64,000 bases of DNA from Pseudomonadota bacterium (GCA_027623555.1 JAQBSZ010000003.1:179082-243081); one strand, 5' to 3'; positions 12,347 through 64,000 are shown, counted from the first letter of the stretch. Program-made: numbers and translations. Notes: generated by a model not told the origin, from the sequence alone.

Positions 12347-12426
12347 GTCGGCACCTATAGTCGTAACATGAAGGGGCAGTACGCCCCTTTCCCGTCACTC
12401 TACACAGGCAAGACGGGAAATAAAAC

Positions 12427-14667: not shown

Positions 14668-16092
14668 TCAGGGCTCACCAATACGCCCATACTTATCTTC
14701 AAATCGCACAATGTCGTCTTCTCCGAGGTAATTCCCGACTTGCACCTCGATAATCTCAACAGGCGCTGCACCGGCGTTTGCGAGCCGGTGTTTGCTGCCC
14801 AGCGGTATAAACGTGGATTGGTTCTCACCCAGTTCAAATTCATTTTCATCGCAAGTGATGAGCCCGGTTCCCTTAATTACTGTCCAGTGTTCCGCCCTTC
14901 GGTGGTGCAGTTGCAGGGAAAGTGACTCGCCCGGGTTCACGATGATGTGCTTTACCTGGTAACCCTCCCCGCTGGCCAGAGATTCATAAGACCCCCAGGG
15001 CCGGAACACCCGGGTATGACTGACTCGTTCAACCCGTCCATCCTGTTCCAGTTTGTCGACTATCTGCTTGACCGCTTGCACTCTATCCTTGCTGGCCACC
15101 AGAACTGCATCGGGTGTCTCGACAATTACCGCCGCTTCCATGCCAACCACAGCAACCAGGCGGGAATGGGCCTGGATATAGCTGTTACTGACAGCTTCCG
15201 TGAGTACGTCACCATCGATGACATTTCCTGCGTTGTCCTTTTTGCCCACATCCCACAGCGCGTCCCAGGCACCCAGATCATTCCATCCGACTGCCAACGG
15301 AATAACTGCTGCCCGCTCGGTGTGCTCCATCACGGCATAATCCAGCGACTCACTACGACATTGGGCGAATTGCTGCTCCGGTAACCGGAAGAAGTCTGCC
15401 CCCTGCTCCATACCCGCATAGGCTGCCTGACAGGCGCTATGGATGTCCTGCGCATAGCGTTCGAGTTCGGCCAGATAATCCCTGGCTCTGAATAAAAACA
15501 TGCCACTGTTCCAGACATAGTCGCCTGAAGCCAGGTATTTCTCGGCTGACTGCAGATCAGGCTTTTCCACGAAGCGGGAAACTCGATATGCCGATGATGC
15601 ACCTATCGCGTTCCCTTTCTCGATGTAACCGTAGCCAGTTTCTGGGGCACCTGGCACTATCCCAAAAGTCACAAGATAATCGTTGCGCGCTAATTCAATG
15701 CCTTGATTGACTGCCTCATGAAATGCCTCTATTTTCTGAATAAGATGATCGGCTGGCAATACTAGCAAGAGCGCCTCGGGATCTTTTGTCAGCGCATGAA
15801 ATGCAGCTATAGCTACTGCGGGTGCTGTATTTCTACCAATGGGTTCCAACAGAATGCTGCTATCTTTATTATCGGCTTGCCGGAGTTGTTCGGCAACCAG
15901 AAAGCGGTGGTCAGCATTGCAAATCACCAGGCAATCTTCGATCTCCGCAATACCCTCGAGCCGCTTAAGCGTATTTTGAAACAGGGATCCCTGTTGCTGA
16001 GGAAAATAGATGAATTGCTTGGGCAGTAACGCTCTCGAGACCGGCCAGAGTCGGGAGCCAATGCCACCAGCGAGAACAACGGGGAGTAACAT
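14668..16092 (-). CDS. manC: Mannose-1-phosphate guanylyltransferase/mannose-6-phosphate isomerase
   Basis: 474 aa; LAGGIGSRLWPVSRALLPKQF; C-terminal cupin PWGSYESLASGEGYQVKHIIVNPGESLSLQLHHRRAEHW. Confidence 0.93.
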   Translation of the reverse strand: MLLPVVLAGGIGSRLWPVSRALLPKQFIYFPQQQGSLFQNTLKRLEGIAEIEDCLVICNADHRFLVAEQLRQADNKDSSILLEPIGRNTAPAVAIAAFHALTKDPEALLLVLPADHLIQKIEAFHEAVNQGIELARNDYLVTFGIVPGAPETGYGYIEKGNAIGASSAYRVSRFVEKPDLQSAEKYLASGDYVWNSGMFLFRARDYLAELERYAQDIHSACQAAYAGMEQGADFFRLPEQQFAQCRSESLDYAVMEHTERAAVIPLAVGWNDLGAWDALWDVGKKDNAGNVIDGDVLTEAVSNSYIQAHSRLVAVVGMEAAVIVETPDAVLVASKDRVQAVKQIVDKLEQDGRVERVSHTRVFRPWGSYESLASGEGYQVKHIIVNPGESLSLQLHHRRAEHWTVIKGTGLITCDENEFELGENQSTFIPLGSKHRLANAGAAPVEIIEVQVGNYLGEDDIVRFEDKYGRIGEP

Positions 16093-55400: not shown

Positions 55401-55477
55401 GGGCCTATAGCTCAGTTGGTTAGAGCGCCGGACTCATAATCCGTTTGTCCCAGGTTCGAGTCCTGGTGGGCCCACCA
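55401..55477 (+). tRNA. tRNA with CAT anticodon, probably tRNA-Ile2 (elongator Met not excluded)
   Basis: gggcctatagctcagttggttagagcgccggactcataatccgtttgtcccaggttcgagtcctggtgggcccacca: cloverleaf, TTCGAGTCC T-arm, encoded CCA, anticodon loop CTCATAA. Confidence 0.93.
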
Positions 55478-55881: not shown

Positions 55882-58101
55882 TCACTCCAGCATTTCTAAG
55901 TATTCCTCGTATGTCGCCTCGCTGAAGTATACTTTCTCTTCCAAGAGGCTAAATTTCATTACAAAAATATCATCGTCCTTTAAGCCCGCTTGCCTACAAT
56001 AAGGTCCCATTCCATAAATGGCACCATCTTGAGACACTCCGATGGTTCCCACGCTTTCATTGCTTTTTTCAACAATTCCTAAAAACTTTTTATTAATAAG
56101 AAACTGCTTCACTGATGAAGGGGAGCCTACAACCATGTTACTCGTAAACTCTGGGCATTTAACAACAATTCTAATCTGACCTTTATCCCAATCGCATAAC
56201 AACAACCGTTTGGTTCGCAATTTGATTTTGGCTTGATCTGACTGCGACGCCATGTGGGCCGAAACATCTCCCGAGGAAGTTCTTGAACCAATGACAGCAT
56301 GAGTATCGACCCCAATGTGCATTACAACAGGGGAGTATGTCATATAAATGCTAAGCGACATTTCATTAAAGCCACTGGCGATACAGCTCCTCAACAAATC
56401 ACCTCGCGACATCAGACCTGACGGAGAAGCGCGTATTCCATCCACAAGAGCTCGCTCTATGCTTGACAGCTCCAATTTGTAGTCCAACTCCTCATTGGAA
56501 GATACCATAGCGTCTTTCAAACTATACTTCGAAGACTGAGCAAGAAAAGCCTCAATGGCTGACGCACTCGGAGGTACTATCTCCTTCGCTCCTCCACCTC
56601 TTGAAGAATTCCTAAACGTAGCCAACCTACGATATCCATCGCAGACGTACTCGATAGATATTGGGTCACATACACTGAGAACTTTTCGCAGTACATTCTC
56701 TAGTCGGTTACGACTAATCGCGACATCATTGACGGGAATCCACCAAATATATTCATCATCAATTGCTTTCCAACCACCAATATTTTTAACAATATTAAGA
56801 ACCTCAGAAAATTCTAGGGTACTTGAATTTTTGGATACTGCTTTGAAAACCAATCTCAAATCAGCAATGCCGTTCCTACTATAATGCTTTGATAATTGAG
56901 TATGAATCTGATTCACTGCTGCGGAATCGCCTCCTACTATCAGCGTCCCATCTCTCATTCTCGACATTGAAAGATCGTCTTCTGGTGCTCTCAGTATCCT
57001 TGAAAAAAGCAATATCGACTCGACAGATACGCCAATTTTGGATACACCGCTAGAGATGAGTTCGTTCTGAATCGATTCAGCACTCGATCCGAGAGAGTCT
57101 CGAATGATTGTAATTGCCTGCGGCAGTTTCGGCATAAAAATAGGAGCAAAACCGGGGATTGATTTAGCTCCTTTTAGCACCTTCGACTCTAACTGACGAA
57201 TGCGCTCTCTAGTTATCCCTGCTAAATTGCCACATTGCTCCAAAGTCAAAATACCGTCTCGATTTATACCAAAACGATTATGTATAGCATTGAGGTTTTC
57301 TTCTTTTATTCGCTTATAGAAAACCGATATGAAGTCTTCAAACTGTTTCTCAAGTGGGAGCTTCTCTATACGTAAAACCCTCTCATGCGTAGACGCAATG
57401 AGGCTTCTAAGTCTCTTGCGATCCTGCACTGTCCACAATTGATAACCTCCCTCCAAAAACTCAAAAAGATCTTCTAGTGTACTTCCTGCCTGGTAGCTCT
57501 TATCAGGGAGGTTGATGTCGAGTTCAGGGAATCTTGGGTCTCCTCGATGGATCTCATTTAATCCACTAATCTTCTGCATATTTGCTACTAAATTACCAAT
57601 CTCTGCATTTAGATCATTGTCTGCAAGCTCTACATCTCTTGGATTTTCTGCCAACTCTTGACTCGCTGAACAATCAAAATCTTCCATTTTATTAAGAAAT
57701 TCCATGATAGATTTTGCACCCATAGCATAAATCCGGCTCAAATCGAGAAGAGTTATTTCTCGGGCATGCACTTTTCCACCACGGCTATCTAAAAATGAAA
57801 CGATGCAGTTGGAAGTTCTAATGGATAGACCGAGCTCTTTAACAATTTCATATGTAAGAATAAGATTTGAATCAGGGAAGCAAGTAGAATTAGCTTTCGT
57901 CATTTCCGGAGCCCTTCGCGTGATTAAAATATTAATATAATGATTAACTGCTTTAACCTCCGCTACGGACAATGAGTTGAAACTAGAGGGTAAATCTCCG
58001 AGTTTCGAATCCCCACTAAGGTTAAAAATATCCTTAATCCAAACTGGAAGTTTTTGCCCGTAAAAGATATCCCGAATAGCTTGTGATAGATCAATACTCA
58101 T
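55882..58101 (-). CDS. Large protein with RNAP alpha-CTD-like segment and sigma-70 region-4-like HTH
   Basis: 739 aa; LGLSIRTSNCI...LLDLSRIYAMGAKSIMEFLNKM resembles alpha-CTD; RFGINRDGILTLEQCGNLAGITRERIRQLESKVLKGAK resembles sigma region 4.2. Confidence 0.85.
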   Translation of the reverse strand: MSIDLSQAIRDIFYGQKLPVWIKDIFNLSGDSKLGDLPSSFNSLSVAEVKAVNHYINILITRRAPEMTKANSTCFPDSNLILTYEIVKELGLSIRTSNCIVSFLDSRGGKVHAREITLLDLSRIYAMGAKSIMEFLNKMEDFDCSASQELAENPRDVELADNDLNAEIGNLVANMQKISGLNEIHRGDPRFPELDINLPDKSYQAGSTLEDLFEFLEGGYQLWTVQDRKRLRSLIASTHERVLRIEKLPLEKQFEDFISVFYKRIKEENLNAIHNRFGINRDGILTLEQCGNLAGITRERIRQLESKVLKGAKSIPGFAPIFMPKLPQAITIIRDSLGSSAESIQNELISSGVSKIGVSVESILLFSRILRAPEDDLSMSRMRDGTLIVGGDSAAVNQIHTQLSKHYSRNGIADLRLVFKAVSKNSSTLEFSEVLNIVKNIGGWKAIDDEYIWWIPVNDVAISRNRLENVLRKVLSVCDPISIEYVCDGYRRLATFRNSSRGGGAKEIVPPSASAIEAFLAQSSKYSLKDAMVSSNEELDYKLELSSIERALVDGIRASPSGLMSRGDLLRSCIASGFNEMSLSIYMTYSPVVMHIGVDTHAVIGSRTSSGDVSAHMASQSDQAKIKLRTKRLLLCDWDKGQIRIVVKCPEFTSNMVVGSPSSVKQFLINKKFLGIVEKSNESVGTIGVSQDGAIYGMGPYCRQAGLKDDDIFVMKFSLLEEKVYFSEATYEEYLEMLE

Positions 58102-58177
58102 TATTTATTTTTTTTCATTGACAACTAGATTAAAGGCATCATACCATCAGTGTCAACATTTTTAAATATATATACTT
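58102..58177. promoter_or_regulatory. Divergent intergenic region (probable shared promoter/operator)
   Basis: 76-bp AT-rich gap between divergent start codons at 58101 (-) and 58178 (+). Confidence 0.45.
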
Positions 58178-58744
58178 ATGAAAAAGTACGATTTAGTTAC
58201 CGTGGCGATGCGAATACTGGGCGGAGACGATCACGCTTTGGATATTGAAGACATTGCGATGAAATGCGAGGAGTTAGCACCCGGCAGTTTTGCATGGAGA
58301 AAATATAGAAACCAAATTAATTTGGAATTAGTAGGGTTTGCTGTTCGAGATGCAAAAAAACCTAAATATGGCGGGCTTGTCTCCGGATCACACGCAAAAG
58401 GCTGGAGACTAACTGCTCCCGGCGTAGCACAAGCTAACAAATTGCTCGCCGATCTCGGCTCCGACGACATACTCCAGGTTCAGCCCACAAAGCACCGAAA
58501 CTTGGATGAAAACCGAAATAACCGCGAATTAATTCGATTGCGAGAATCCAGCGCCTTCAAAGAATGGCAAACCTCAACCGAGGCTTCGAAACTCGCCCTT
58601 ACCCAACTTCTACGCATAAACGCCTACGCTTCTCAAGACTCTATAGATGTTAAGGTCGCCAGACTAGCTAAGGTAATTGGACTGGACGAAGAAGTTGACA
58701 CCTTCGTCAACTATATCATCTCCCGGAAACAGGACTTACTATGA
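58178..58744 (+). CDS. Hypothetical protein, probably winged-helix N-terminus
   Basis: 188 aa; basic N-terminal segment compatible with wHTH (FAWRKYRNQINLELVGFAVRDAKKPKYGGLVSGSHAKGWRLTAPGVAQA). Confidence 0.75.
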   Translation: MKKYDLVTVAMRILGGDDHALDIEDIAMKCEELAPGSFAWRKYRNQINLELVGFAVRDAKKPKYGGLVSGSHAKGWRLTAPGVAQANKLLADLGSDDILQVQPTKHRNLDENRNNRELIRLRESSAFKEWQTSTEASKLALTQLLRINAYASQDSIDVKVARLAKVIGLDEEVDTFVNYIISRKQDLL

Positions 58745-60405
58745 ATAATATAAATGTAACCAGCCACATAGGCAGGGACCTACTCCAATCCGCGAATATG
58801 TTCAAGACCGCTGATGTAGCAGTTTGGGAGTATGTAGTTAATAGCCTCGAATACGTCACATTAGGCACAACGCCTAAAATCACGATAGATATAGATAACA
58901 GAGGAAAAAGCATCACGATTCGCGACAACGGACGAGGCATGGACCTCGCTGGTCTAAGTAATTTCTTCACCATGCACGGTGAGAATATAGACCGAAAACA
59001 GGGCATCCAGGGAAGGGGGAAGTTCGGTACAGGCAAGTCAGCGGCATTTGGAATCGGGAAAAGACTAACTGTATCTAGTGTTGTAGATAATATTCAAAAT
59101 ACCATTACTTTACATAGAGCCGATATAGACGCGTCTGATGGCGGCGAAATTCCCGTAGAAATAATTGAGTCGGGCTTGAGGCTCGAAGGCATAAGGAATG
59201 GCACCGTAATTAGAATTGAAGAAATATTTGTTCCCAAAATTGATTCGCAAAAAATCATTAAAAAGGTTGAAAAGCATCTTCAGTCCTTTCGGCATTCAAG
59301 CCCAGAGATTTTAGTTGGAGATCATATTTGCACATATAAAGAACCTTTCTTCCAAGAAACAGTAACGTTCACCCCTGAAGAAAACCTAAAAAGATACCTT
59401 GGGGATACGCAGCTAATAGTTAAAACGTCACAAAAACCTCTAGACCGCGATGAGAGAGGAATCCTTGTAAGCTGCGGGCCTGGCAATCTTGTCGCCATGG
59501 TCGACGCTGGCGTTTGCTCAAAAGAGATGGGAGAGTTTCTATTTGGTGACATCGATGTGCCAACTCTTGAGAGCAATGAGTATGATATGGATGCATTCAG
59601 CTCCTCAAGGGACATGGACTTGAGACCGGAGCATCCAGTGGTCATAGCTCTGACAATGTTCATCGGAACATCTTTGGAGGAAGTACGCAAAGAACTAGTA
59701 AAACAAAAGAAAGAGGCGCTCAAAACTGAAGTAAGCAAGAGGCTGAAAGAGCAAGCTGACAAAATAGCCGACCTGCTCAATAGCGATTTCAAGGAGTTAA
59801 ACGACAAGGTTTTAGAAATAAGGTCATCCACATCAAATTTCGGAAAATTTGCACAGAAGCCGGCAGAACAAAATGAGGATGATGGACAAGGATGGGTGAG
59901 CGGTCTGGAGGAAAGAGGCGAATTAACTGACAAAGAATTTCCTATTTTTGAAAGCGGTGACACTCCGCATATACCTCAGCCCTCGCCGAACCCTGGCCCA
60001 GAAACGCCTAATTCTGGCGAACCTGATAAAGAAGGAACAGCGTCACTCGACGCCACAGATATGGTTGAAGCAAGAAAGCCCAGACGACCAAAAGGCGGCT
60101 TTAGTGTTGAATACAAACACATGGGAGCTTCTCATGATAGAGCTACGTATACCGCAGATAAAGGAGTGTTTACAGTCAACCTCGACCATCCGCTGGTTCA
60201 CAGCGCATCAACCAATCTTGGCATCAGCGATCTAGGCTTCCAGCGTCTAAGCCATGAGATAATTTTCTCTGAATATGCTCTTGCGCTGGCAAACATGGCC
60301 GCAGTTGATGACCCTGATATTCCAGCAGACGATGTGATCTACGATGCAAGGGAAACTCTGAACCGGATATCAATCAAAAGCGCCATCCTTTACGAGAGCC
60401 AGTAG
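58741..60405 (+). CDS. GHKL (HSP90/MutL/MORC-type) ATPase
   Basis: 554 aa; N-box VWEYVVNSLEY (ExxxN), G1 box IRDNGRGMD, G2-like box GRGKFGTGKSAAFGIG; ATGA overlap with upstream gene. Confidence 0.88.
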   Translation: MNNINVTSHIGRDLLQSANMFKTADVAVWEYVVNSLEYVTLGTTPKITIDIDNRGKSITIRDNGRGMDLAGLSNFFTMHGENIDRKQGIQGRGKFGTGKSAAFGIGKRLTVSSVVDNIQNTITLHRADIDASDGGEIPVEIIESGLRLEGIRNGTVIRIEEIFVPKIDSQKIIKKVEKHLQSFRHSSPEILVGDHICTYKEPFFQETVTFTPEENLKRYLGDTQLIVKTSQKPLDRDERGILVSCGPGNLVAMVDAGVCSKEMGEFLFGDIDVPTLESNEYDMDAFSSSRDMDLRPEHPVVIALTMFIGTSLEEVRKELVKQKKEALKTEVSKRLKEQADKIADLLNSDFKELNDKVLEIRSSTSNFGKFAQKPAEQNEDDGQGWVSGLEERGELTDKEFPIFESGDTPHIPQPSPNPGPETPNSGEPDKEGTASLDATDMVEARKPRRPKGGFSVEYKHMGASHDRATYTADKGVFTVNLDHPLVHSASTNLGISDLGFQRLSHEIIFSEYALALANMAAVDDPDIPADDVIYDARETLNRISIKSAILYESQ

Positions 60406-60907: not shown

Positions 60908-61282
60908 CTAGTATTGCTGTTTTTCCATAATCACGCCTCTGACACCACCACGCGGATTCTCGGTGTCGCCCTTCCTCCTCGGAATCAAGTGTATGTGGCA
61001 ATGAAATATAGTCTGGCCCGCATCCTCACCACAATTCATACCAATGTTGAATCCAGTAACATCAGCATCTTCAGCCTGAATTAGTTCTTTATGCTTCTTC
61101 AATAACCCTTGAAGGTCTTCCAACTCTGCATCATTGAGACCAAAGTAGTCCGTCACATGTCGCTTGGGGATTACTAACGCATGTAATGGCGTAACAGGAA
61201 ACCCATCCCGGATAACGAAGAAAAGTTCAGATTCATCCACGATACGCTCGCTCTCTATACTACAAAATGCACATTTACTCAT
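60908..61282 (-). CDS. HIT family protein
   Basis: Start at MSKCAFC (ATGA overlap with upstream HNH stop); HIT motif TIFHCHIHLIPRRKGD. Confidence 0.9.
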   Translation of the reverse strand: MSKCAFCSIESERIVDESELFFVIRDGFPVTPLHALVIPKRHVTDYFGLNDAELEDLQGLLKKHKELIQAEDADVTGFNIGMNCGEDAGQTIFHCHIHLIPRRKGDTENPRGGVRGVIMEKQQY

Positions 61283-62295
61283 TCTCTTAACTCTTTTCTC
61301 AGACGGGGCTTCCACTTTTCCTTACTTGGAATCGCCTCAACCGCTCCGTTATACATCGACTGCAAGAAAGCCTTTCTATCAGACTCTGTTCTGCCGGTCT
61401 GGTTGACTATCGTCTCTCTCAGAGGGTGGTGGCTCTCCACATAATAGTTATTTCTATCATTCAAGGCATAAAGAAAATCTAGATGCGCAATTCTTTCAAA
61501 TTTACCACCTTCACCTCTGTTACACTCTTTGCACGCAAGCACCAGGTTCCACACTTGATCAACATTCATGATACCCGAGGACTTCAGCTTATGCGGAAAG
61601 AAATGATCTACATCGCAAGAGTTCTCATACCCCTGTTCGATAAGTATGTCTTTTGAACAGTAGAAGCAACTACCTTTCTGATATCCGTTGAGCGCATCTC
61701 TTGAAGACGAAATACTGATTCTTCTAGCTTCAGGGTTATGCACAAACAGTTCATTACTTTCAATATCTGCGTTCACTTGGATCAGGTTTGGACTAATCCC
61801 CAACGATATAGCTGTCTCCCAAAGCCGCCATCTCGACTCAACTTCATATCCAAAATTTGAAGACTGCGAAGACTTCAATAGCTGATAAAAATTGTCTGTA
61901 AGGATTATGCCTTTCTCGTCCTTTCGCTTGTCCTCGAAGAATCTTGGCACCTCGTTTCCAGACACTTTGTGAAAGGCGTCAATGACATTCACAAATCCCA
62001 ATTTAATAGCTTGAGCTCTCAATTCGTCTTGTGCGATTTGCTCAGAATTATACTGGCGACAGTAATCTAGGAACTTGCTGGACTTCGAGGTTACCTGTTT
62101 ATCGTTATGTTCCAGGTGTTGAGCAACATTAAGCGCAAAAGGTAACGCAAGATCTTCCATTCTTATTAGCGTGCTATCTGCTTGTACCTCCAGAAGGGTT
62201 TTGGCAAGAGCAAATTTATAGGAGGCGACATTATTTCCGAGCAAAACAATTGCCCGCCAATAGGTGCTTAACGAAGGATCCTTGTCAATAAACAT
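61279..62295 (-). CDS. HNH endonuclease domain protein
   Basis: 338 aa; CFYCSKDILIEQGYENSCDVDHFFPHKLKSSGIMNVDQVWNLVLACKECNRGEGGK. Confidence 0.9.
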   Translation of the reverse strand: MFIDKDPSLSTYWRAIVLLGNNVASYKFALAKTLLEVQADSTLIRMEDLALPFALNVAQHLEHNDKQVTSKSSKFLDYCRQYNSEQIAQDELRAQAIKLGFVNVIDAFHKVSGNEVPRFFEDKRKDEKGIILTDNFYQLLKSSQSSNFGYEVESRWRLWETAISLGISPNLIQVNADIESNELFVHNPEARRISISSSRDALNGYQKGSCFYCSKDILIEQGYENSCDVDHFFPHKLKSSGIMNVDQVWNLVLACKECNRGEGGKFERIAHLDFLYALNDRNNYYVESHHPLRETIVNQTGRTESDRKAFLQSMYNGAVEAIPSKEKWKPRLRKELRE

Positions 62296-62357
62296 CTAAT
62301 CGTCGCTCGCTGGAATTCCGATCAGTTTCAATGAATCTACGCATTATCCTCCATCTA

Positions 62358-62651
62358 TCAACACGGTACTGACAACTTAACTTCCACTACGACCAGCTTT
62401 CCGTGCTGCGTTATATAGAGTATATCCAATGGTCCGGCAGGGGTATTCAGCTCACAACACACAGGCAACATACCCGAGAATATATTGTCGATATCCTCGA
62501 TTGGTATGGATGACGGGTTATTGAAAAGGAAATTCTGCAACCACTTCTCGTCATAAAAGAAATCTGAATTAGATTGCAGACCGATTTTCTCTAAAGGCCT
62601 AGGTATGCCATCAGATATGAGAACAGGGGAAGGAAATGCGGATTTACTCAT
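62358..62651 (-). pseudogene. Truncated PD-(D/E)XK-type nuclease ORF
   Basis: 97-aa ORF ending ...AGPLDILYITQHGKLVVVEVKLSVPC; the catalytic D...ExK core is reached, then stops in the 23-bp repeat. Confidence 0.65.
62364..62386. repeat. 23-bp direct repeat, copy 2 (cggtactgacaacttaacttcca)
   Basis: Exact match to 60675-60697, same orientation. Confidence 0.95.
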
Positions 62652-62697
62652 AAGTCACCAATTTAGTATTCTACATCTATCGATAGTCTAGCTGGAT

Positions 62698-63099
62698 CTA
62701 TGAAGCCATCTTCTGTGAATCGGGCATAACCACAACCTCAATGTCCTGAGCGGCACACAGTTCAGACATCAGCTCGTCATTCTTGCTGCATATCGCCACC
62801 GTTCTGATTGAGAGCGGGTTCAGCTTCATCAAAAGCTCTCTCGAGAAGAACGCTTGACCCATCAAGTACATCCCCAACCGACTCCCTTTTGTCTGAATAC
62901 AGATAACGTCTCTGCCGGAGATATCAAAACTTCCTCCGCTTCGAACAGTAGTTTCTTCACCGAGAACGATTAAACCATCTATCAAGCGCCTAGCAACATT
63001 CCCGCCAGAGTTTGCAGATACAGCCTGAAATTCTTCTATGAGGAGACCTCCGACTTTTTCCCAATAAGCTCTGGTTCTCCATGACTCATGCTTACTCAT
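62698..63099 (-). CDS. Small restriction-endonuclease-like (PD-(D/E)XK-like) protein
   Basis: 133 aa; RRLIDGLIVLGEE...GRDVICIQTKGSRLGMYLMGQAFFSRELL compatible with D...QxK nuclease core. Confidence 0.6.
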   Translation of the reverse strand: MSKHESWRTRAYWEKVGGLLIEEFQAVSANSGGNVARRLIDGLIVLGEETTVRSGGSFDISGRDVICIQTKGSRLGMYLMGQAFFSRELLMKLNPLSIRTVAICSKNDELMSELCAAQDIEVVVMPDSQKMAS

Positions 63100-63163
63100 A
63101 ATACTTACCCTGCGACTTTAGAGCCTTGAACCTTGCCCAAAACATCTCCTTAATTCACTCGCC

Positions 63164-64000
63164 TCAAAAACTCTCTGTATCAGTAGGACTAAATTTCATC
63201 TTGAGAGCAGGAAAAGCATCAATCATAGACTGAACAACTTTAGGAACTCCTCTCCCCCATTGGTTCGAAAGCACATATGTCTTCCCATCAATAAAAAACA
63301 TCTCTCCTTCTTTGCAAAAATATCTTTTGGTTCGAGGTCGCTCCGCATGGGGATCATCTTTACAAAGCTCGATAGACAGTGCCGTCTCATCTAACTCTCC
63401 ATCGAAGATTTTAAACATTCTGTTCTTTCTACCTGGCACAAATTCAGCCACTGCCTCTGGGGCAATTCCACTTTCAATGGCTGCTTTCACTGTCCTATAC
63501 ATTAAATGCCGCTTTGGTAGGTTTCTATGAACCTCTTGCCCAATAGCAAGGTCAAATCTAGTGGTATCTATATTTGATGATCGTACCTTTTTTACTTCTT
63601 GCTTTTTTTCATTTAGCTGAACTTGATATTGCTCAGTCTCTGGCAGAGGTATGACTGTCTGCACATCCAGCAGAGTTTTATTACCATCTTGATAAGGCCT
63701 AATCCTGATACATCTTATATCTACACTTTTTTCATTCAACCACAGTACTGCGCTTGTGACCTCCTTCGAAAACTCAGCAGCAGCCAGAATAATTCGAACA
63801 TCATTCCCGAAACTTTCTTCGTCGGGCTCTTCTAGCTCTAAAAATTCTAAAAGATTTTCCTCAGCATTCGCTTCAGTACCTATGCTCTTTAAATACCCTT
63901 CGTATATATCAACAACTTTACTGAAAGTAAGATTTGCGATCATTGCAGCGTATCTAATAGCCTGTAACTCCATATGACCGCCATCTTCAGACCGCTTCAA
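63164..64000 (-). CDS. C-terminal part of a PD-(D/E)XK-type DUF91-like protein (5' end outside window)
   Basis: Open to window edge; begins LKRSEDGGHMELQAIRYAAMIANLTFSKVVDIYEGYL, which follows the catalytic E-x-K in related proteins. Confidence 0.75.
   Translation of the reverse strand: MKRSEDGGHMELQAIRYAAMIANLTFSKVVDIYEGYLKSIGTEANAEENLLEFLELEEPDEESFGNDVRIILAAAEFSKEVTSAVLWLNEKSVDIRCIRIRPYQDGNKTLLDVQTVIPLPETEQYQVQLNEKKQEVKKVRSSNIDTTRFDLAIGQEVHRNLPKRHLMYRTVKAAIESGIAPEAVAEFVPGRKNRMFKIFDGELDETALSIELCKDDPHAERPRTKRYFCKEGEMFFIDGKTYVLSNQWGRGVPKVVQSMIDAFPALKMKFSPTDTESF

Follow-up and report, generated by a model that had tools for sequence, protein, structure and literature searches.

A conserved three-gene module joining a sigma4/alpha-CTD protein to a winged-helix-type protein and a GHKL ATPase: an apparently undescribed, probably anti-phage variant of GHKL-associated conflict systems

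GHKL/S5 ATPases are ATP-gated dimer clamps on DNA, sigma region 4 (sigma4) recognises the -35 box of promoters, and the C-terminal domain of the RNA polymerase (RNAP) alpha subunit (alpha-CTD) binds the UP element and contacts RNAP. ATPases or promoter-contact domains of these kinds occur in several described systems. According to PMC2292703, the MORC and paraMORC1-5 proteins join GHKL and S5 domains with intact motifs, are spread widely but sporadically, and lie near methylases and nucleases, and a looping of DNA has been proposed for their operons. VcSduA (GHKL-Shedu, paraMORC3; PMC12137116) carries an N-terminal GHKL ATPase, a predicted clamp in defence, and a DUF4263 nuclease within one protein. 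In the MZA defence locus a GHKL ATPase has a sigma70-related neighbour, and restriction enzymes of the BbrUII/HgiDII type (NF050001) have a GHKL core. PglW of type 2 BREX (PMC12839542) is a kinase whose single chain has an alpha-CTD-like domain, several winged helices after it, and other sensor domains. The eukaryotic silencing ATPase MORC2 clamps DNA and compacts it (PMC12216690). Here we describe a locus at positions 55,882 to 60,405 of a 64,000-nucleotide stretch of Pseudomonadota DNA (GCA_027623555.1, JAQBSZ010000003.1:179082-243081; "the window"), where a gene for a protein with alpha-CTD and sigma4 domains is divergent from a winged-helix/GHKL gene pair. This triad is apparently an undescribed module that varies the theme of GHKL-associated conflict systems and may recognise its targets in a new way. 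The open reading frames (ORFs), strands, lengths and intergenic gap given in a preliminary description of this DNA were exact, as was the 4-nt ATGA overlap (58741-58744) of the 188-aa and 554-aa ORFs. The parts are as follows.

55882..58101, minus strand: 739-aa RNAP-module protein (the "sigma4 protein"), by ORF call, family profiles and predicted model
57685..57849, minus strand: alpha-CTD-like domain, residues about 85-139 of the 739-aa protein, by profiles
57163..57354, minus strand: sigma region 4, residues about 250-313 of the 739-aa protein, by profiles
57193-57210, minus strand: sigma4 recognition helix RERIRQ, same as in the host RpoD
55882..56220, minus strand: B3-like C-terminal domain, residues 628-739 of the 739-aa protein, a weak fold match
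58102-58177, no strand assigned: divergent control region of 76 bp with predicted overlapping face-to-face promoters
58178..58744, plus strand: 188-aa winged-helix-type protein, no Pfam entry, present in all 16 homologous loci
58741..60405, plus strand: 554-aa paraMORC-type GHKL ATPase with GHKL and S5-like domains, coiled coil and a C-terminal domain with an INLDHP motif
59635..59838, plus strand: predicted long helix/coiled coil of the GHKL protein, residues 299-366

The three genes form an obligate, co-evolving and horizontally spread module. A two-sequence GHKL alignment, scanned against 84,980 species genomes, yielded 21 loci. The test set beforehand for the linkage proposed between the RNAP-module protein and the GHKL pair was their co-occurrence in distant genomes, and this was complete: profile searches found the whole triad in 16 of the 16 further loci with at least 32% full-length GHKL identity, two of which (L013 and L014, Chloroflexi) are near-duplicates. 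Their hosts are Gammaproteobacteria, Alphaproteobacteria (Maritimibacter, Pelagibacteraceae), another Pseudomonadota genome, Acidobacteriota, Actinomycetota, Chloroflexota and Bacteroidota. The remaining five loci, from Chloroflexi at 29-34% GHKL identity (the last from a partial gene), have GHKL alone in the stretch examined. When 15 triad genomes were searched whole with a profile of the C-terminal half of the sigma4 protein, matches fell at this locus alone, with one copy per genome or, in L017, a split gene; the whole-genome profile search found no sigma4 gene in three genomes with only a distant GHKL homologue. Among 369 genomes sampled evenly from the window's class, GHKL occurs in two and an intact sigma4 gene in the same two. 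Of two extra sigma4 matches in this sample, one ends at a contig edge. The other, in another gammaproteobacterium (L064:9872-11083), is a decayed remnant that has lost its N-terminus and acquired one stop; it lies near insertion sequence/transposase-like genes and has no partner genes, the GHKL pair included. Within the window's family the sigma4 gene is found in 1 of 137 genomes, namely the window's own. The distances of the three proteins correlate (Mantel r 0.956, 0.910 and 0.850; 0 of 10000 permutations each), and phyla are intermixed in the GHKL tree. Three arrangements occur, with the sigma4 gene divergent (8 of 17 loci, window included), upstream and co-directional, or downstream; stop/start overlaps of a few bases, 4-nt ones included, are present in most co-directional cases and therefore favour co-production over chance adjacency. 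Among phages, plasmids and viral contigs, the GHKL and sigma4 queries matched nothing apart from one Rhizobium plasmid, which has a distant GHKL (26%) without sigma4 or winged helix-turn-helix (wHTH) partners.

The 739-aa protein is read as an N-terminal region followed by an alpha-CTD-like helix-hairpin-helix, sigma region 4, tandem winged helices and a B3-like C-terminal barrel. Its RNAP-derived parts had been named in the preliminary description; in the window protein alone they are weak (E=1.3e-4 for sigma4, E=0.13 for alpha-CTD, both missing the curated cut-offs), and it is profiles of the family that make these sequence-based assignments secure. A profile of 13 homologues matches the sigma4 of solved RpoS and RpoD structures (E=1e-16 against RpoS), the Pfam entry Sigma70_r4 is matched in 13/13 members and alpha-CTD in 6/13 (best E=1.7e-25), and a profile of the alpha-CTD segment matches RNAP alpha with E=2e-12. 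In addition to these significant matches, the family has the -35 contact residues R-E-x-x-R-Q of sigma region 4: R-E-R-x-R-Q is invariant across it, and the intact recognition helix of the window protein, TRERIRQ, is identical in the host's own RpoD. Domain and profile searches recognised no sigma2 region, sigma4 being the only sigma region found; therefore, the 739-aa protein is unlikely to be a functional sigma factor. The AlphaFold model has a mean predicted local distance difference test (pLDDT) score of 84.7 and a predicted template modelling (pTM) score of 0.49; because of the latter the placement of domains is unreliable. It is a chain of helical and winged-helix domains ending in a barrel of the order b-b-a-b-b-b-a-b-b. 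Among the nearest solved folds are plant B3 DNA-binding domains for the barrel (probability 0.77-0.97 for the best, E 0.08-0.24) and the tandem winged helices of SelB, and in this model B3-like and tandem winged-helix domains are likely. Compared by structure with viral models, the sigma4 protein had no significant match. The family varies in build. In Arthrobacter (L017:6818-9335) the protein is split over two neighbouring genes, both of which encode a sigma4-like helix, and in a subclade of three loci (L021, L027 and L030; Bacteroidota and Chloroflexota) a single protein holds two alpha-CTD-like repeats. These three loci also have xanthine-dehydrogenase-type neighbours in common, which suggests joint transfer or a misbinned contig.

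The GHKL protein matches HATPase_c_3 with E=5e-16 and, by its sequence, retains all catalytic motifs: the N-box (E30/N34), G1 (G66-M67) and G2 (G93..GTGK) are invariant over 17 members. Its model (pLDDT 78.2) consists of GHKL and S5-like domains, a 68-residue helix and a small a+b C-terminal domain, with a GHKL fold close to those of Hsp90 and DNA-bound MORC2. The predicted GHKL+S5 fold with a long coiled coil resembles that of MORC2 (TM-score 0.43/0.50), although MORC2 has other C-terminal domains and its chromatin context is lacking here. The preliminary description had cited GHKL ATPases of the MORC type, and the protein fits this type as far as GHKL, S5 and the catalytic motifs go. However, the S5 signature GhXhhpXXRhl, as given in the text of PMC2292703, is absent: G240 is conserved, the position of the R is occupied by G248, and no member has an R there. 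Since this signature is missing, the 554-aa protein falls outside MORC as strictly defined; it belongs to the wider paraMORC radiation. Of the features that mark paraMORC1, 2, 4 and 5 (a family-specific C-terminal extension, ExxxH, TIR and HxH), the comparison covered the last three, with no TIR match and no invariant ExxxH or HxH. In contrast to the MORC/paraMORC restriction-modification operons described in the text of PMC2292703, the module is without a superfamily II helicase or a conserved nuclease partner, and that text makes no mention of an alpha-CTD/sigma4 protein as constant partner. A figure of that paper lists Pelagibacter among its neighbourhoods, and a prior sighting of the GHKL gene or the pair there is possible. 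The 188-aa protein matched no known family in Pfam, PADLOC, NCBIfam or further profile searches; its earlier label as a wHTH protein agrees with the sequence pattern, from which we likewise read a putative winged helix. In L020 and L022, an extra small gene (74-75 aa) stands ahead of the wHTH gene.

No model in PADLOC 2.0.0, NCBIfam or Pfam covers the module, in agreement with the earlier statement that no named system of this composition was recognised, and we found no description of the combination of these three components in the open-access literature. The nearest named system, MZA, the only one we encountered that has a sigma70-related gene next to a GHKL ATPase gene, had been overlooked, and it is ruled out by profile tests and by the absence of its partners at the locus. 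The weak local matches are confined to shared domains: against MzaA (NF041931) the 739-aa protein scores 39.8 bits (cut-off 800) over profile positions 634-699 only (66 positions), whereas MzaA is a full sigma70, an ordinary RpoD matching positions 230-716 (about 480 positions) of the profile; the 739-aa protein, unlike MzaA, combines sigma4 with alpha-CTD and has no sigma2. The GHKL protein scores 22.7 bits against MzaB (NF041932; cut-off 850), in the GHKL core, and 19.2 bits against the PADLOC MzaB model. At this locus a winged-helix protein takes the place of the MZA partners, and the window genes at 60908-64000 gave no match to Z1 (MzaC), MzaD, AIPR (MzaE) or the DUF partners. VcSduA differs from the module in that its nuclease is part of the ATPase chain, whereas the GHKL protein here has two partner proteins, no Pfam match to PD-(D/E)XK (DUF4263) and the small a+b domain at its C-terminus. 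Unlike PglW, the 739-aa protein lacks a kinase and contains sigma4 together with a B3-like domain. The GHKL core is homologous to that of NF050001 (E=2e-10), but the score is 39.8 bits against a cut-off of 550, and the remainder of the GHKL protein is unmatched.

The control region shows a further regularity. The hexamer TTGACA is the -35 consensus, the target of the sigma4 recognition helix. In the window it lies at 58118-58123 on the plus strand, with TGTCAA at 58151-58156, giving predicted promoters TTGACA-16-TTTAAT (minus) and TTGACA-18-TACCAT (plus); the geometry of the L029 control region is equal to the base. Each of the 8 divergent 200-bp regions contains one or more exact copies of TTGACA, counting both strands, and it is the sole hexamer common to all eight. 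The 14 copies in total compare with a mean of 1.07 and a maximum of 6 in 2000 dinucleotide shuffles, and with 2 among 70 other gene starts of the same loci; in some loci the anchor was moved after inspection to the most plausible start, usually by no more than about 35 bp. Five loci have a copy that coincides with the wHTH gene start or falls near it; such a copy is too far downstream for the -35 box of this gene and is easier to read as an operator than as a promoter. This regularity in the DNA is consistent with autoregulation by the sigma4 protein. The control region of the Arthrobacter locus L017 has an 18-bp direct repeat, AGTAGTAAGTGTGCGAAC.

We infer that the module is probably anti-phage, and it may recognise foreign DNA by its promoters. 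Specifically, we tentatively favour, at slightly less than an even chance, a mobile three-protein complex for defence or the silencing of foreign DNA, guided by the sigma4/alpha-CTD protein as promoter reader and acting through a MORC-like GHKL clamp. The sigma4/alpha-CTD/winged-helix/B3 protein would be the DNA-reading subunit, binding -35/UP-type promoter DNA and repressing its own divergent promoters via TTGACA. Promoter-rich DNA entering the cell would titrate this protein or serve as its loading site, and there it would recruit the winged-helix/GHKL partner, whose ATP-driven dimer would close on the DNA as MORC2 does, so that the DNA would be compacted or silenced and RNA polymerase or replication blocked. 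As searches with Pfam, PADLOC and NCBIfam recognised no nuclease family among the three proteins, we prefer a silencing clamp to a cutting enzyme. Several points weigh against this proposal. TTGACA is typical of any strong sigma70 promoter, and its presence does not prove binding by the 739-aa protein; non-divergent arrangements have no TTGACA enrichment, with single copies in L020, L022 and L027. The homologous loci all come from a single GHKL-seeded scan, the B3 and tandem wHTH assignments come from a predicted model for which no PDB entry matched below E=0.001, and the clamp or compaction step is drawn from analogy. Furthermore, roughly every second neighbourhood consists of ordinary metabolic genes, such as those for an amino acid permease, an amidase or molybdopterin enzymes.

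Other readings of the same parts have to be considered. In the holoenzyme, sigma4 and alpha-CTD touch not only DNA but also RNAP, and the presence of two promoter-contact modules together with defence neighbours would also suit a surveillance role, close to the monitoring of phage takeover put forward in the preliminary description, in which the protein docks on RNAP (beta flap, UP/activator surfaces), detects sigma appropriation or RNAP modification by a phage, and frees the GHKL partner to act, probably abortively. We consider this unlikely, since conservation is highest in the DNA-reading helix (RERxRQ) and the TTGACA regularity favours DNA binding. It is about as improbable that the module has no part in defence and is a mobile regulatory or nucleoid-organising unit in which the 739-aa protein merely regulates transcription of the pair. 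The regulator-like divergent layout, the putative TTGACA operators and the ordinary neighbourhoods agree with such a role; however, other loci have the 739-aa homologue co-operonic with the pair, upstream or downstream and often with stop/start overlaps, the protein is far larger than a dedicated repressor, and the patchy distribution (2/369 genomes) and defence neighbours fit it poorly. A restriction-like action, with the GHKL ATPase looping DNA between the site of the sigma4 protein and a nuclease, and an adjacent methylase protecting self DNA in some hosts, would follow the precedent of the MORC/paraMORC operons. DNA methylase genes near the triad in L012, L013/L014 and L015, the type ISP enzyme in L017, and the weak resemblance that GHKL members show to profiles of type II restriction endonucleases and to BbrUII speak for it, but the other loci have no conserved nuclease or methylase and DUF4263/PD-(D/E)XK is absent from the three proteins, which leaves this reading quite unlikely.

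The surroundings of the module point to mobility and, less evenly, to defence. In the 4.5-Mb genome (G000) the locus comes after dnaG, rpoD and a tRNA-Met gene (55401..55477, plus strand; outside the module), and a tRNA gene lies within 2 kb of the module in six loci, window included. The rpoD-adjacent tRNA-Met is an integration site, a hot spot in genomes of the window's genus. In one such genome (G450; L053:12507-12554, 12374-12394 and 15742-15818 for the copies and the gene) its 3' part recurs as 48-bp and 21-bp copies 3.2-3.4 kb off, the 48-bp copy being 3.2 kb downstream. Other relatives (G448, G489) have further partial copies, so that this is an integration site used repeatedly. No att-type copy of the tRNA-Met 3' end was found downstream in the window's own contig. 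In Pelagibacteraceae (L022:4031-13861) the module directly follows that genome's own dnaG-rpoD and a tRNA-Val; the window's module has the same chromosomal setting. Defence genes adjoin about half of the loci, an association that is fair, not uniform, and that favours an anti-phage role without proving it: a CBASS cyclase and Cap15 are immediately downstream in L029, SIR2 and an SNF2/PLD helicase are neighbours in L016, a type ISP restriction enzyme in L017 and a DNA methylase in L015. An Eco57I-type adenine methylase stands beside the sigma4 gene in L012:4871-6526 (Actinobacteria), L013:4777-6387 and L014 (Chloroflexi), and these loci are possibly a four-gene variant with self-modification. 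No fourth gene common to most loci was found; the neighbour tallies of loci other than the window took in 25 families. The nuclease genes reported near the window's module are indeed there, namely a 338-aa HNH gene (61279-62295; PtuB-like HNH motif, E=8e-8), overlapped by a 135-aa HIT-domain gene, and a 97-aa, apparently truncated fragment like the NucS C-terminal domain (62358-62651). The HNH gene was considered as a part of the module and ruled out, as it is not conserved in the other loci. The defence-type neighbours on this contig further include an intact 355-aa gene of the PDC-S11 family, a candidate defence system (L006:13246-14313; window 63164-64000, extending past the window's end; E=4e-87 for the portion inside), and an adjoining 241-aa GmrSD_C-like HNH gene (L006:14416-15141).

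The module is a compact, widely spread three-protein set in which the part that would choose the DNA is built of recognisable promoter-reading domains. Although we regard it as rather doubtful, these genes may represent a bacterial counterpart of MORC-type silencing in which the promoters of foreign DNA are read by captured RNAP parts (sigma4 and alpha-CTD), an ATP-driven clamp acts instead of a nuclease, and the -35 control region serves as a titration switch. With a 4.5-kb clone, promoter-reading immunity becomes a directly testable idea.

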